A stretch of 64,000 bases of DNA, taken from Paludibacter sp. (lineage in GTDB: Bacteria; Bacteroidota; Bacteroidia; Bacteroidales; Paludibacteraceae). The translations under genes were made by a program, and so were the position numbers. The stretch's first letter is position 1; every line of letters begins with the position of its first letter. This document shows, piece by piece, positions 3,806 through 8,829 of this stretch. The notes beneath the pieces were generated by a model. The model saw nothing but the letters and a program-made list of their open reading frames with translations, had not been told where the DNA came from and did no database searches. Where the stretch lies: contig JAQUYE010000001.1 in assembly GCA_028691965.1 (NCBI GenBank), positions 1 through 64,000 on the forward strand, in the 5' to 3' direction.

Positions 3806-4870
3806 ATGATAATGAAACAAATTATACTTCTTTTTACGCTTCTGATTAGCATTATCAGCCTTTCTGCTCAACCATCGGATGGCTATTATTCATCAGCCTT
3901 AAATAAATCGGATGCTGAACTCAAAACAGCTTTGTTTGTAATTATGTCGAATCCATACGAAATGGTGTCGTATGGTGATTTGTACGAGGTGTATAAAACC
4001 AGTGACGTGAATCCCGATGGTACGCTTTGGGATATGTATTCGACCTGCACCTGGGTCATCGACGAAAAGAAATGCGGAAATTACAAAAATGTGTGTGATT
4101 GTTATAACCGGGAACATTCTATTCCTAAAAGCTGGTTCGATGATCGTTATCCGATGTATTCAGATGCTCATCATCTGTATCCAACCGATGGCAGGGTTAA
4201 CGGACAGCGGGGTAACGACCCGTTCGGAGAATGTGCCAACGGCACGTCTTTATCTTCGATGAGCCTGGGGCGTAGTGGCACTTCTACTTTTCCGGGCTAT
4301 TCAGGGAGAGTATTCGAACCGGTTGACGAATACAAGGGAGACTTTGCCCGAACTTACTTTTACTTCGCTACACGTTACGAAGATATAATGACCAGCATGC
4401 AAACGTCGGCTAGCTCCTTTGCCGGGAATACCTATCCTGCCCTCAACAACTGGAGTGTTAACCTGTTTTTGAAATGGCACCGCCAGGATCCGGTTTCCCA
4501 AAAAGAAATTACCCGTAATAATGCGGTTGAAGTTCATCAGAAAAATCGCAATGCCTTTATCGATCATCCTATCCTTGTAGAACATATTTGGGGTGAGCTA
4601 AAGGGAAATCCATGGAAAAACTCTACTCTTACCAGACCGGCCGAACTCCTGGCCCGTATCTATTATAATCCTGCTTCACGATTGATGACTACATCGACCG
4701 ACCTCGGTGAAATGCGTTACGAAGTGATGAATATTAGTGGTGTGCGTGTACTGTCGGGCACCTTAATGGGAGGCGACGCGGTATCAGTATCATCTCTGAA
4801 CAGGGGAGTATACTTCTTCCGCCTGTCGGGAAACGATATTAAAGTAGTGAAAAAGTTTATAATTCAATAA
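3806..4870 (+). CDS. Secreted endonuclease I family nuclease with T9SS sorting domain (1 of 3)
   Basis: An extracellular nuclease of the EndA/Vvn (Endonuclease_1) family, which cuts DNA and often RNA with a beta-beta-alpha-metal site. A signal peptide ends at SLSAQ (about residue 22; an alternative ATG lies at 3812). The core holds NREHSIPKSWF, with the conserved Glu-His pair of the active site, then DAHHLYPTDGRVNGQRGN with the metal-site Asn. The last ~70 residues form a T9SS type A sorting domain (GVRVLSGTL, NRGVYFFRLSGNDIKVVKKFIIQ), so the protein should be exported and cleaved or anchored by T9SS. A weak -7 (TACCTTAG, 3780-3787) lies upstream. The next paralogue starts one base after the stop, which implies one transcript for all three. 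Confidence 0.9.
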   Translation: MIMKQIILLFTLLISIISLSAQPSDGYYSSALNKSDAELKTALFVIMSNPYEMVSYGDLYEVYKTSDVNPDGTLWDMYSTCTWVIDEKKCGNYKNVCDCYNREHSIPKSWFDDRYPMYSDAHHLYPTDGRVNGQRGNDPFGECANGTSLSSMSLGRSGTSTFPGYSGRVFEPVDEYKGDFARTYFYFATRYEDIMTSMQTSASSFAGNTYPALNNWSVNLFLKWHRQDPVSQKEITRNNAVEVHQKNRNAFIDHPILVEHIWGELKGNPWKNSTLTRPAELLARIYYNPASRLMTTSTDLGEMRYEVMNISGVRVLSGTLMGGDAVSVSSLNRGVYFFRLSGNDIKVVKKFIIQ

Positions 4871-4871
4871 C

Positions 4872-7715
4872 ATGAACAAATCAACCCTGCATAGTTATTG
4901 GTTGCTGACCCTGCTGTTGAGCCTCACCTCCTGGCTTTTTGCTTCAGTCCCTGCGGGCTATTATTATCCCGCCCGTAATAAAATGAAAGCCGGATTAAAA
5001 ACAGCCCTGCATAGTACCGGATCGCCTCTTCAGGTGTATAGGTATGGTAGTGGTGAAGGTGCAACCTGGCAGGGGTTTTTCTTTACCGACCAAAATAGCG
5101 ACGGATCGGTTTTCGACCGCTATTCGGCTATTAAGCGCTATTTCGATGGTTATAGCAGTATATCTGATATGCACATTGAACACTCCTTGCCCAAAAGCTG
5201 GTGGGGTGGGGCTGATAATATGGCTTACCGGGATCTCTTCCATCTTTATCCTTCGGATGGGCGTACTAATTCCTATAAAAATAATTACCCCCTGGGTTTA
5301 GTGGAAGAAGCCACCGCTAATTATGCAAATGGGGTTAGTAAAATCGGCAAAAATACTTTTGGTTCTTTTTACACCGGTCTGGCATTCGAACCTGCAGATG
5401 AATATAAAGGTGATTTTGCCCGTTCTTACCTGTATATTTCAACTATTTACGAACACTTTGCTCCGCTATGGGTGTCGCCCATGATGCAACAAAATACCTA
5501 TCCGGTATGGACTCCCTGGGCTATCGACCTGCTCATGCAATGGCATGAGTCTGATCCTGTAAGCGAGCTGGAACTACAACGCCAGGAAGCGGTATATGCT
5601 ATTCAGGGTAACCGAAATCCATTTATCGATTACCCCGATCTTGCCTCTTATATCTGGGGGCCGGATACCTTGTCGACATTCCCTTTTCCGGAAGAAACGG
5701 GTAGTTTTCTGTTCCTTCCCCGCCGCGGTTATGTGCTCGACTTTGACCTGATCCTGCAGGGTGATACCTTAGGTCGTTCGTTGGATGTTCAGGGACTGAA
5801 CCTGAGTGGAACAATCGCTATTCGCCTGAAAAATGAACACCCGGCCTTTAGTTTGAACCAACAGTCGCTTACTGCTGATGAAGTTCTCGACGGGACTGAT
5901 GTGCGCATTGTATTCCGTCCACAGGCTTCGGGTACATTCCGCGATACCTTGTTGATTGAAGGAGGCGGACTCACCGAATCCTTCCTGGTGCCTCTCGAAG
6001 GGAAAGCATCCCGACAATTAATGGCACTCGAGCCTGAAGTCCTTACCCCTGTGGGAGCAACGCTCCACTGGATAGCTGATCCAAAGGCCGAAACTTACGA
6101 AATAAAGGTGTATAAGGGTGCAACCAGGGCCGGTAATCTGTTGATATCCTCTTATGTGGAAGGCAGCTCTTATAATAAAGCAATTGAGATTTATAATGGT
6201 ACAGGCGCAACCATACAGTTGTCGGATTATATGGTAGCTAAGCAATCGAACGGAACAGGCGATTACGAATCAGTATACCGTCTGAGTGGTAATCTTGCCG
6301 ATGGTCAGTCGGTAGTAGTTGTGCATCAGCTGTGTTCTAACGAAGACCTGAAAGCGAAAGCTACGTTCTTCACCGATTCGGTGATGAATTTCAACGGAAA
6401 TGATGCTCTGGCACTGCTTCACAATAACCTGCGCGTTGACGCTGTGGGATACTTTGATGCCGGTGCTGATCAGATGTGGGGTGAAAATAAGACTTTATAT
6501 CGTTCGGCAGCAGTTACTCATCCTTCACAAGAGTACCGAGAAGCAGACTGGCAAAGCCTTGAAACAGATGATTTCAGTCCGCTTGGAAACCACCGGATGA
6601 CCTTCAGTTCACAGCAGATACTTGTAGCTGATATCAGCATTGCTGCCGATCGGTCACTCTTTGAGCTGACAGAGCTCGAACCGGAGACTTCTTACAATTA
6701 TCAGGTACGGGCTATTCGGAAGGATGGTGCTGTTCAATCGGTTAATTCGGTACAGTTCTTCACTGCTTCACCCGAAGTTCCCGTTCCAATGGAGCCTACA
6801 GATATCGGATCAACCTACTTTCTGGCAGAATGGGATTCGGATTTGTACTCCGAACAGTTTGAAGTACAGGCTTACTACAAAATCGGGGCTGCTGATGTAA
6901 CTGAAGTAGTTCCCTTTAACGAGGTCGGTTCTTCAGGAAAACCACTGCCATCAGGATGGTCGGGAACGGCCAGCGGAAATTATACTTCAGCTACCAGTTC
7001 GGGTGTAGCACCTCCTTCGGTGGCACTTAAAAATACCGGTGAGTGGTTACAGTCGCCCGTATATCCTTATTCGATCCGGGAAATCAGTTTTATGTATCGT
7101 TATCCTTCCAATGGTACAGGGTCGTACTTTACAGTCGAAGCCTTGCAGGGAAGCGAATGGGTAACTATCGATAGGATAGATTACGTAAATACATCGAAAA
7201 CTATTTTATCCTATACCTTTGGTCCGGAGGATAATGTGCTGTCAATCCGGATTACTTATGCCAATAAAGCATCTGGTAACCTGGCCATTGACGATTTCAG
7301 AGCAGTATACGGAAACGAGATTAACGAGTACCTGTTCCAGAACCGGCTCGTTACCGGCACCACCTATCGGGTTGAAAACCTGAGTCCGACAAGCAGTTAT
7401 TATTATCGGGTTCGCTCTGTAATTGGAGAAGTACGTTCTGCCTGGTCGGAAGAAGTAAAGGTAACCACTCTCTTAGAGAGCTCTCTTGAATCGGAGGGGC
7501 TAGTGTTGCCACGCTGGACAGTAACATCTTCGGGCATTGTTCTGATGGGCCTGCAGCCGGGTAGCAGGGTGCACTTATTCTCGGTGACCGGTCAGCTACT
7601 GGGTGATTTTGCTGTTAATCATCCATCACTGGAGCTATCGTTGAAACCGTCTCAGGTATATATTATTCGCCTTGTGAACTCTCAGTCATTGTATTCATTT
7701 AAAGTAATTCGTTGA
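4872..7715 (+). CDS. Multidomain secreted endonuclease I with LTD, nested Fn3 and T9SS domains (2 of 3)
   Basis: 947 aa, far longer than a normal family member. Order seen: signal peptide (to about 24); endonuclease I core (about 25-265) with HIEHSLPKSWW and DLFHLYPSDGRTNSYKNN; an Ig-like stretch (about 270-378); then two fibronectin III-like domains, each apparently split by an inserted domain. The first Fn3 (about 380-416 and 584-634) encloses a lamin-tail domain (SYNKAIEIYNGTG onward). The second (about 637-669 and 816-864) encloses a jelly-roll-like domain (LPSGWSGTASGNY to NLAIDDFRAVYG). A T9SS sorting domain ends it (VIRLVNSQSLYSFKVIR region). Arg in the usual REH motif is Ile here, but the catalytic Glu-His is kept. 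The inferred role is surface or extracellular DNA degradation with binding modules. Confidence 0.88.
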   Translation: MNKSTLHSYWLLTLLLSLTSWLFASVPAGYYYPARNKMKAGLKTALHSTGSPLQVYRYGSGEGATWQGFFFTDQNSDGSVFDRYSAIKRYFDGYSSISDMHIEHSLPKSWWGGADNMAYRDLFHLYPSDGRTNSYKNNYPLGLVEEATANYANGVSKIGKNTFGSFYTGLAFEPADEYKGDFARSYLYISTIYEHFAPLWVSPMMQQNTYPVWTPWAIDLLMQWHESDPVSELELQRQEAVYAIQGNRNPFIDYPDLASYIWGPDTLSTFPFPEETGSFLFLPRRGYVLDFDLILQGDTLGRSLDVQGLNLSGTIAIRLKNEHPAFSLNQQSLTADEVLDGTDVRIVFRPQASGTFRDTLLIEGGGLTESFLVPLEGKASRQLMALEPEVLTPVGATLHWIADPKAETYEIKVYKGATRAGNLLISSYVEGSSYNKAIEIYNGTGATIQLSDYMVAKQSNGTGDYESVYRLSGNLADGQSVVVVHQLCSNEDLKAKATFFTDSVMNFNGNDALALLHNNLRVDAVGYFDAGADQMWGENKTLYRSAAVTHPSQEYREADWQSLETDDFSPLGNHRMTFSSQQILVADISIAADRSLFELTELEPETSYNYQVRAIRKDGAVQSVNSVQFFTASPEVPVPMEPTDIGSTYFLAEWDSDLYSEQFEVQAYYKIGAADVTEVVPFNEVGSSGKPLPSGWSGTASGNYTSATSSGVAPPSVALKNTGEWLQSPVYPYSIREISFMYRYPSNGTGSYFTVEALQGSEWVTIDRIDYVNTSKTILSYTFGPEDNVLSIRITYANKASGNLAIDDFRAVYGNEINEYLFQNRLVTGTTYRVENLSPTSSYYYRVRSVIGEVRSAWSEEVKVTTLLESSLESEGLVLPRWTVTSSGIVLMGLQPGSRVHLFSVTGQLLGDFAVNHPSLELSLKPSQVYIIRLVNSQSLYSFKVIR

Positions 7716-7722
7716 TCCTTCG

Positions 7723-8829
7723 ATGTTGAAAATCATGGTTTCGTTCTTCAGAGTGCCCTCCCGGGTCCTTCTGCCGGGTAAGAGGTGGATAGTGTTTCTT
7801 TTCTTTGCGGTAGTGTGTATTCCACCAGTGCTGCATGCCGATATTCCACCGGGATATTATAATACCATTGAAGGGAAAAGAGATGCCACTCTTAAAACAG
7901 CCCTACATACTATAATTCGTCCGCATACACAGCTCGAGTATTACAGTTCAAGTACTCATTTCCGCTCTACCGACTGGCATCCGGAGGGTTATTTCTGGGA
8001 TATGTATTCCCGTGAGAAACGCACCAGCTGGTCGAATCTTAACCGGGAGCACTGTATGCCCAAAAGCTGGTGGAGTCCGCAACCTGAGTACACAGTTGCA
8101 TATTCCGACCTTCACAACCTGTATCCATCTAACGTGGCTGCCAATTCTGCCAAATCGAATTATGCCCTGGGTATTGTCGGGGCTGTTTACGAATTCGATA
8201 ACGGCGTTTCAAAAGTAGGTAACAATACCTATCCCGGATATTCGGCTACGGTGTTTGAACCGGCTAACGAGTACAAAGGAGATTTTGCACGTACCTATAT
8301 GTATATGGTGACCTGTTACGAAGATTATGCTCCCAACTGGAGGAGTACGGGTACCGAGAGTATGCTGTATCAAAACACCTATCCGGTATTCAAGCCTTAT
8401 GCTATAAGCTTGTTGATGAAGTGGCACCGCGAAGATCCGGTAAGTCAAAAGGAAATTGATCGAAACAATGCCGTTCACGTAATTCAGGGGAACCGTAATC
8501 CCTACATCGATTTTCCTGCATTGGCCGAGTTTATTTGGGGTAACAGCAAGGGACAGGCCTGGAATACCGATGAAGCAGGGGGTGCGTTAGAAGATATATT
8601 CTCACTAAGTTTCCGGTATGATCGGGATGAATTGCTGGTACGTCTGAGTCCTGCGGTCGGAGTAGCCTATAGTATTCATTCCATTGAAGGCCGGCAGGTG
8701 CTGAGTGGGATGTTATCAGGATCAGCAACCACAACTATTCCGTTGCAGGGTAAACTTAATAAGGGCGTCTATCTTTTTGTAACAGAAACTCCCCGTAAGC
8801 GTCATGCTCAATTATTTATAGTAGTGTAG
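7723..8829 (+). CDS. Secreted endonuclease I family nuclease with T9SS sorting domain (3 of 3)
   Basis: Third tandem paralogue, 7 bases after the second. An N-terminal hydrophobic signal (about residues 20-40, ending near VLHAD) is followed by the nuclease core with NREHCMPKSWWS and DLHNLYPSNVAANSAKSN, which keep the Glu-His and Asn positions. The VFEPANEYKGDFARTYMY segment is nearly shared with the other two copies. The last ~75 residues (GRQVLSGML, NKGVYLFV) look like a divergent T9SS type A domain. The 3' end overlaps the convergent tatC gene by 14 bases. Start choice is uncertain (ATG at 7723 or 7735). Confidence 0.88.
   Translation: MLKIMVSFFRVPSRVLLPGKRWIVFLFFAVVCIPPVLHADIPPGYYNTIEGKRDATLKTALHTIIRPHTQLEYYSSSTHFRSTDWHPEGYFWDMYSREKRTSWSNLNREHCMPKSWWSPQPEYTVAYSDLHNLYPSNVAANSAKSNYALGIVGAVYEFDNGVSKVGNNTYPGYSATVFEPANEYKGDFARTYMYMVTCYEDYAPNWRSTGTESMLYQNTYPVFKPYAISLLMKWHREDPVSQKEIDRNNAVHVIQGNRNPYIDFPALAEFIWGNSKGQAWNTDEAGGALEDIFSLSFRYDRDELLVRLSPAVGVAYSIHSIEGRQVLSGMLSGSATTTIPLQGKLNKGVYLFVTETPRKRHAQLFIVV

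Follow-up and report, generated by a model that had tools for sequence, protein, structure and literature searches.

Several described systems resemble parts of the protein that we analyse here. Periplasmic or secreted Endonuclease I enzymes such as EndA and Vvn share its catalytic domain and active-site residues, but they do not possess its 680-residue stalk with nested domains. The extracellular nucleases ExeM and Xds (a lamin tail domain, or LTD, combined with an EEP nuclease; PMC6085458) are likewise secreted DNases with an LTD. In ExeM, however, the LTD is free-standing and N-terminal, and the nuclease fold and the export route differ. CBM16, CBM29 and the cleaved-adhesin domains K1-K3 of a gingipain have the jelly-roll fold of the second nested domain; judging from the chains listed, they are separate domains in the solved structures and not nested in Fn3. 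In FnIII-2 of the insulin receptor and IGF1R family a large insertion also splits an Fn3 of an extracellular protein. That insert carries a processing site and is described as disordered (PMC2577065), whereas the inserts described here are complete folded domains of several families, found in bacteria and in two consecutive Fn3s.

The protein, P0001, is encoded in a 64,000-nucleotide stretch of Paludibacter sp. DNA (contig JAQUYE010000001.1, positions 1 to 64,000), the whole of which we call the window. A sequence-only reading of the window had claimed that an LTD and a jelly-roll-like domain each interrupt an Fn3 at the same place in the fold, and had suggested that Fn3 acts as a repeated host frame for binding domains, in an architecture not known to be described. 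Our sequence comparisons and structural model make the split-Fn3 architecture of P0001 very probable.

The gene and its neighbourhood

P0001 has 947 amino acids and is encoded by the open reading frame 4872-7715 on the forward strand (residues coded by 4872-7712). It is the middle one of three Endonuclease I genes in tandem with almost no spacers between them (3806-4870, 4872-7715 and 7723-8829). Pfam finds Endonuclease_1 in all three, and an LTD and fn3 fragments in P0001 only. The features below draw on sequence comparison and on an AlphaFold model of P0001 built from 46 sequences (mean pLDDT 88, pTM 0.63).

3806..4870, + strand, upstream tandem paralogue, Endonuclease I with T9SS tail, without Fn3, 354 aa
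4872..4946, + strand, predicted N-terminal signal peptide, P0001 residues 1-25 (hydrophobic N-terminus by sequence; helix 3-20 in the model)
4950..5660, + strand, Endonuclease I (EndA/Vvn-type) catalytic domain, residues 27-263 (Pfam PF04231, E=5e-45)
5703..6011, + strand, probable Ig-like ASH/HYDIN-type (choice-of-anchor-D-like) linker domain, residues 278-380 (strands in the model)
6012..6119, + strand, Fn3-1 first half, strands A, B, C, residues 381-416
6120..6611, + strand, insert 1, lamin tail domain (LTD) in the Fn3-1 C-C' loop, residues 417-580
6612..6770, + strand, Fn3-1 second half, strands C', E, F, G, residues 581-633
6771..6884, + strand, Fn3-2 first half, strands A, B, C, residues 634-671
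6885..7313, + strand, insert 2, beta-jelly-roll domain (JR-A) in the Fn3-2 C-C' loop, residues 672-814
7314..7475, + strand, Fn3-2 second half, strands C', E, F, G, residues 815-868
7503..7712, + strand, C-terminal Ig-like domain, weak type A T9SS sorting tail, residues 878-947 (TIGR04183, 14 bits; domain kept in orthologues)
7723..8829, + strand, downstream tandem paralogue, Endonuclease I, without Fn3, 368 aa

The tandem order of a short Endonuclease I, a long one with nested Fn3s and another short one is kept in several relatives (L039, L040, L042 and L053), and among the named relatives the closest are Paludibacter MAGs and further Bacteroidales. The linker of P0001 has no Pfam match, and the same place in paralogue L067 matches Cep192_D4 weakly; its probable ASH/HYDIN type is read from the sequence pattern.

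The catalytic domain scores 154 bits with PF04231 (cut-off 25; Pfam span 100-255), and its match in the PDB is of the Vvn type (1oup/1ouo). The conserved E-H pair and the metal-binding N, namely E103, H104 and N133, are invariant among 46 sequences (P0001 and 45 orthologues), and this makes an active enzyme probable. In the alignment with chain 1oup, N133 pairs with N109. We take the equivalents with catalytic roles in Vvn to be E79, H80 and N127. With regard to export, the tail of P0001 scores 14 bits in the type A T9SS cargo model TIGR04183, under the cut-off of 23, and the neighbouring paralogue P0002 passes it with 39.4 bits. The genome does possess a T9SS, as shown by SprA above its cut-off and by 66 tail matches at E <= 0.001. 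In the draft genome SprA is divided over two contigs (C155 and C10).

The two inserts and their possible role

Pfam on full-length P0001 annotates an LTD at 419-527 and fn3 as fragments only. When cut out and searched alone, insert 1 matches the Pfam LTD family (PF00932, E=1.9e-14, 54.4 bits against a cut-off of 34.3), and the LTD region also gives a partial match of 102.5 bits to the ExeM model. Insert 2 has no Pfam or NCBIfam family over threshold. The best family is CBM_35_2, with a best E-value of 0.0015 and matches from 4 of 40 members, and the sequence from P0001 itself reaches 14.3 bits against a cut-off of 23. Modelled alone, insert 2 adopts a jelly-roll fold (pLDDT 96), and Foldseek relates it to CBM16, CBM29, the cleaved-adhesin domains K1-K3 of a gingipain and MAM-containing proteins, so that the jelly-roll-like domain of the sequence-only reading is borne out. 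To K1-K3, CBM16 and CBM29 the TM-score by query length reaches up to 0.72 at about 10-15% identity. Since it fits no sequence family, we do not file insert 2 as a CBM or a cleaved adhesin. Neither insert found a credible match in profile searches against PDB sequences. In one orthologue from a Paludibacteraceae MAG (L042, 3861-6026) the second insert contains an in-frame TAG; this gene could be a pseudogene or the codon an assembly error.

We propose that P0001 is a T9SS-exported Endonuclease I of a Paludibacter-like member of the Bacteroidales, whose C-terminal stalk contains two Fn3 host frames, with the LTD nested in the first and the CBM/adhesin-like jelly roll in the second. As an Fn3 has its chain ends at opposite poles and its C-C' loop at the side, a nested domain could project sideways, and the Fn3s could link the nuclease to the C-terminal sorting domain as an unbroken rod. 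The pTM of the model is only 0.63, and domain orientations, including this sideways projection, are thus not fixed by it. The inserts would most probably hold the enzyme on its substrate or its surroundings, that is on extracellular DNA, a DNA-containing matrix or glycans, and such tethering might concentrate the DNase locally, whether it stays at the cell surface or is released. Binding by the inserts, and the ligands they may prefer, are read by analogy from the LTD fold and the CBM/adhesin-like jelly roll. The case for a nucleic-acid role of the LTD in particular is modest. ExeM without its LTD degrades DNA more slowly in vitro, and in vivo the LTD is dispensable for the degradation of extracellular DNA, with almost no change upon its deletion (PMC6085458). 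Taken as a whole, the explanation of split-Fn3 sockets together with a tethering function of the inserts seems to us fairly likely.

The near silence of the ExeM deletion in vivo also agrees with a reading that we consider rather unlikely, yet take seriously, in which the Fn3s are truly split and the inserts act as passive spacers, lend stability or fix the protein to the cell, without binding substrate. Jelly rolls and LTDs occur as generic modules too. In addition, the two adjoining paralogues are plausible nucleases without any insert, which counts against tethering. On the other hand, the insert cores are about as conserved as the whole protein (mean column identity 56% vs 53%). The folds most similar to that of insert 2 belong to carbohydrate-binding modules and adhesins, and a further insert type found in neighbouring genes, JR-B, resembles a T9SS surface endonuclease family. 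These points speak against passive inserts.

Evidence for split Fn3 domains

The first break follows EIKVYKG (410-416), with the LTD at 417-580 and the Fn3 resuming with ILVADISI from 583. The second follows FEVQAYYKI, which ends at 671, with the insert at 672-814 and EINEYLFQNRL from 816. At both positions, which are those of the sequence-only reading, matches of the rejoined halves and the model indicate a split Fn3.

Very improbable in our view is the reading of P0001 as ordinary consecutive domains, with short linkers or half-Fn3 repeats standing beside whole LTD and jelly-roll domains. It could appeal to the halves taken alone, as the N-halves give no Pfam fn3 match and the C-halves reach 19.8 and 23.2 bits, under the 25-bit cut-off, and to Saprospiraceae L095, in which LTDs alternate with intact Fn3s. 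Rejoined, however, the halves pass Pfam fn3 (PF00041) with 27.2 and 27.5 bits over positions 12-76 and 9-83 of 84, the 27.5 bits of Fn3-2 being little above the 24.9 bits of the contiguous insert tail plus C-half. A profile of 82 uninterrupted Fn3 domains from 27 loci of other genomes and proteins separates the two readings further. The rejoined halves of P0001 fit this intact-Fn3 profile of 88 positions end to end, scoring 36.1 bits for Fn3-1 (positions 3-87) and 50.0 bits for Fn3-2 (positions 4-87), and these scores drop to 22.0 and 42.2 bits when the contiguous tail of the insert replaces the N-half. Among 46 orthologues the median for Fn3-1 is 35.5 bits rejoined, against 16.0 and 20.4 for the halves and 18.6 with the contiguous-tail substitute; for Fn3-2 the values are 62.4 bits rejoined, 24.8 and 36.7 for the halves and 35.1 with the substitute. 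The scores of the halves are thus nearly additive.

Homology between the two host domains points in the same direction. Profile-profile comparison finds homology between the rejoined Fn3-1 and the rejoined Fn3-2 along 84 columns (E 1.3e-17), and half by half the N-halves match each other with E 8e-10 and the C-halves with 7e-14. The N-halves are moreover homologous to those of intact Fn3s. The inserts are unrelated to each other (profile-profile probability 0.13%). The two breaks align within 3 columns, and in P0001, in the orthologues (medians) and in six further proteins the last profile position covered by the N-half is 29-33 and the first covered by the C-half is 37-51, which places the break in the C-C' loop.

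The structural model agrees with this placement. Around each insert it gives the strand complement of one Fn3, confidently predicted and in the order A-B-C-C'-E-F-G, with the split between C and C'. Fn3-1 consists of A 385-392, B 395-400, C 406-415, the LTD, C' 583-591, E 596-599, F 607-616 and G 627-630, and Fn3-2 of A 639-643, B 650-654, C 662-671, the jelly roll, C' 817-828, E 831-834, F 842-851 and G 862-865. A Foldseek search of the full-length model against the PDB gave only long chains of Ig/Fn3 domains with a TM of about 0.1, a result that carries no information about domain identity. Consecutive domains in a predicted structure had been named in advance as the outcome that would refute the split; the AlphaFold model and three profile tests show split Fn3s instead. 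The same architecture is kept in 45 other aligned orthologous loci.

Recurrence of the insertion site

A search of 200 genomes of the family found near-complete matches in about 44 of them, and with one genome per GTDB species there are about 50 more-or-less full-length loci, which overlap with the former. In the fetched loci, after deduplication, we count 58 split Fn3s of the LTD type, 54 of the JR-A type, 22 of the JR-B type and 1 of the JR-C type, next to 71 intact Fn3s; this sample is biased to orthologues, and the numbers are not a frequency estimate. Low-scoring gaps of 30-46 residues were left out of the count. L154 (gap 115) and L156 (gap 121), candidates for further split types, were rejected as arrays of intact Fn3s with missed half-hits.

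The search for other proteins with the same split Fn3, which had been proposed as a check, found LTD, JR-A, JR-B and JR-C inserts at the same C-C' site. LTDs sit in this loop in a second protein of the same genome (L005), in another Paludibacter (L093), in Flavobacterium microcysteis (L092) and in a member of the Cloacimonadota (L091), all of them without an Endonuclease I domain. JR-A is found at the site in an M6-type metalloprotease of the same genome (L006), and in the family search many open reading frames of about 950-990 aa also match its span. As each split Fn3 can stand alone in such single-split proteins (L005, L006, L091, L092, L093 and the JR-B paralogues), strand exchange, in which Fn3-1a would fold with Fn3-2b or a neighbour and enclose the LTD-Fn3-1b-Fn3-2a block in one larger host, is hardly credible, even if the half-domains are homologous in pairs and cross-pairing is sterically imaginable.

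The JR-B insert, of 141-154 residues, splits an Fn3 in 22 Endonuclease I genes which neighbour the orthologues of P0001. Such genes lie about 1.5-2 kb upstream of the orthologue in L043, L044, L050, L052, L060, L062, L065-L067, L073, L074, L076, L077, L090, L096 and L102, and downstream of it in L082 and L087. JR-B matches JR-A weakly (probability 2.7%), and its sequence pattern suggests a jelly roll. Over about 100 positions it resembles the family of the T9SS-dependent surface endonuclease AS87_RS02955 (NF052644; E 7e-7 and 2e-6), a short family with a model of 251 positions, and the match is far under the family's own cut-off. Endonuclease activity of the AS87_RS02955 protein is reported in the title of the original paper. 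JR-C is an insert of 197 residues in L150, and its relatives in L189-L191 are free-standing.

Two neighbouring observations concern the arrangement of enzyme and insert. On contig C102 of the same genome a second Endonuclease I gene (L003, 1417-2616) ends after an ASH-like domain and is directly followed by the separate open reading frame L005 (4-3054, at least 1017 aa) with its LTD in an Fn3, so that enzyme and stalk are two genes. In the Cloacimonadota contig JAFGVF010000252.1 (L094, 5001-5558) an LTD, read from the sequence, apparently sits inside the PKD domain of an Endonuclease I protein. PKD is another Ig-like fold, which suggests that the socket idea may reach beyond Fn3.

The rejoined-half profile has matches in 100 of 198 Bacteroidota genomes, and most of those listed are contiguous intact Fn3s with up to 89.9 bits. 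By these matches the host is an ordinary Bacteroidota Fn3 subclass, of which the insert-free form with an empty site is common. In the genome to which the window belongs, the matches listed are half-domain matches. That LTDs generally sit in Fn3s is rejected, as 0 of 37 are embedded among the best-scoring LTDs of Bacteroidota (24 loci; not a frequency estimate). Together with the alternation of LTDs and intact Fn3s in L095, this makes embedding a distinct state and not the default.

Discussion

Domain insertion and the Fn3 fold are each already known. As in P0001, the FnIII-2 insert of the insulin receptor lies between strands C and C'. In the open-access literature searched, we came upon no account of Fn3s that recurrently harbour folded domains. 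The insulin receptor is a partial precedent for the architecture, and an Fn3 loop that takes up several folded domains time and again seems not to have been described. Similarly, the idea of Fn3 as a repeated host frame for binding domains gains from inserts of at least four families in unrelated proteins as far as the host frame is concerned, and binding is suggested by the folds of the inserts.

How the inserts came to share one site may be partly read from a tree of the rejoined host Fn3s (60 rows, 94 columns), although it leaves many forks unresolved. LTD hosts fall into more than one group in it, and supported branches force at least two changes. This hints at more than one insertion, or at an exchange of inserts in a shared socket, and insertion or swapping would be the evolutionary route.

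Nested domains have usually been explained singly. Here one loop of a common fold hosts several unrelated domains in various enzymes and in two phyla, and it lends itself to the question of why some sites tolerate the insertion of whole domains. It may also be of use in the design of Fn3 scaffolds with side arms. Neither Pfam nor NCBIfam recognises the host Fn3 halves, and for the three jelly-roll-like inserts they offer no model over threshold, so that many T9SS cargo proteins are under-annotated. We think it reasonably likely that one subclass of Fn3 in Bacteroidota and their relatives offers its C-C' loop as a general socket, and that whole binding domains from at least four families have entered this loop by insertion or swapping. 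If this is true, units of an Fn3 with a side arm would diversify secreted nucleases, proteases and other exported proteins.
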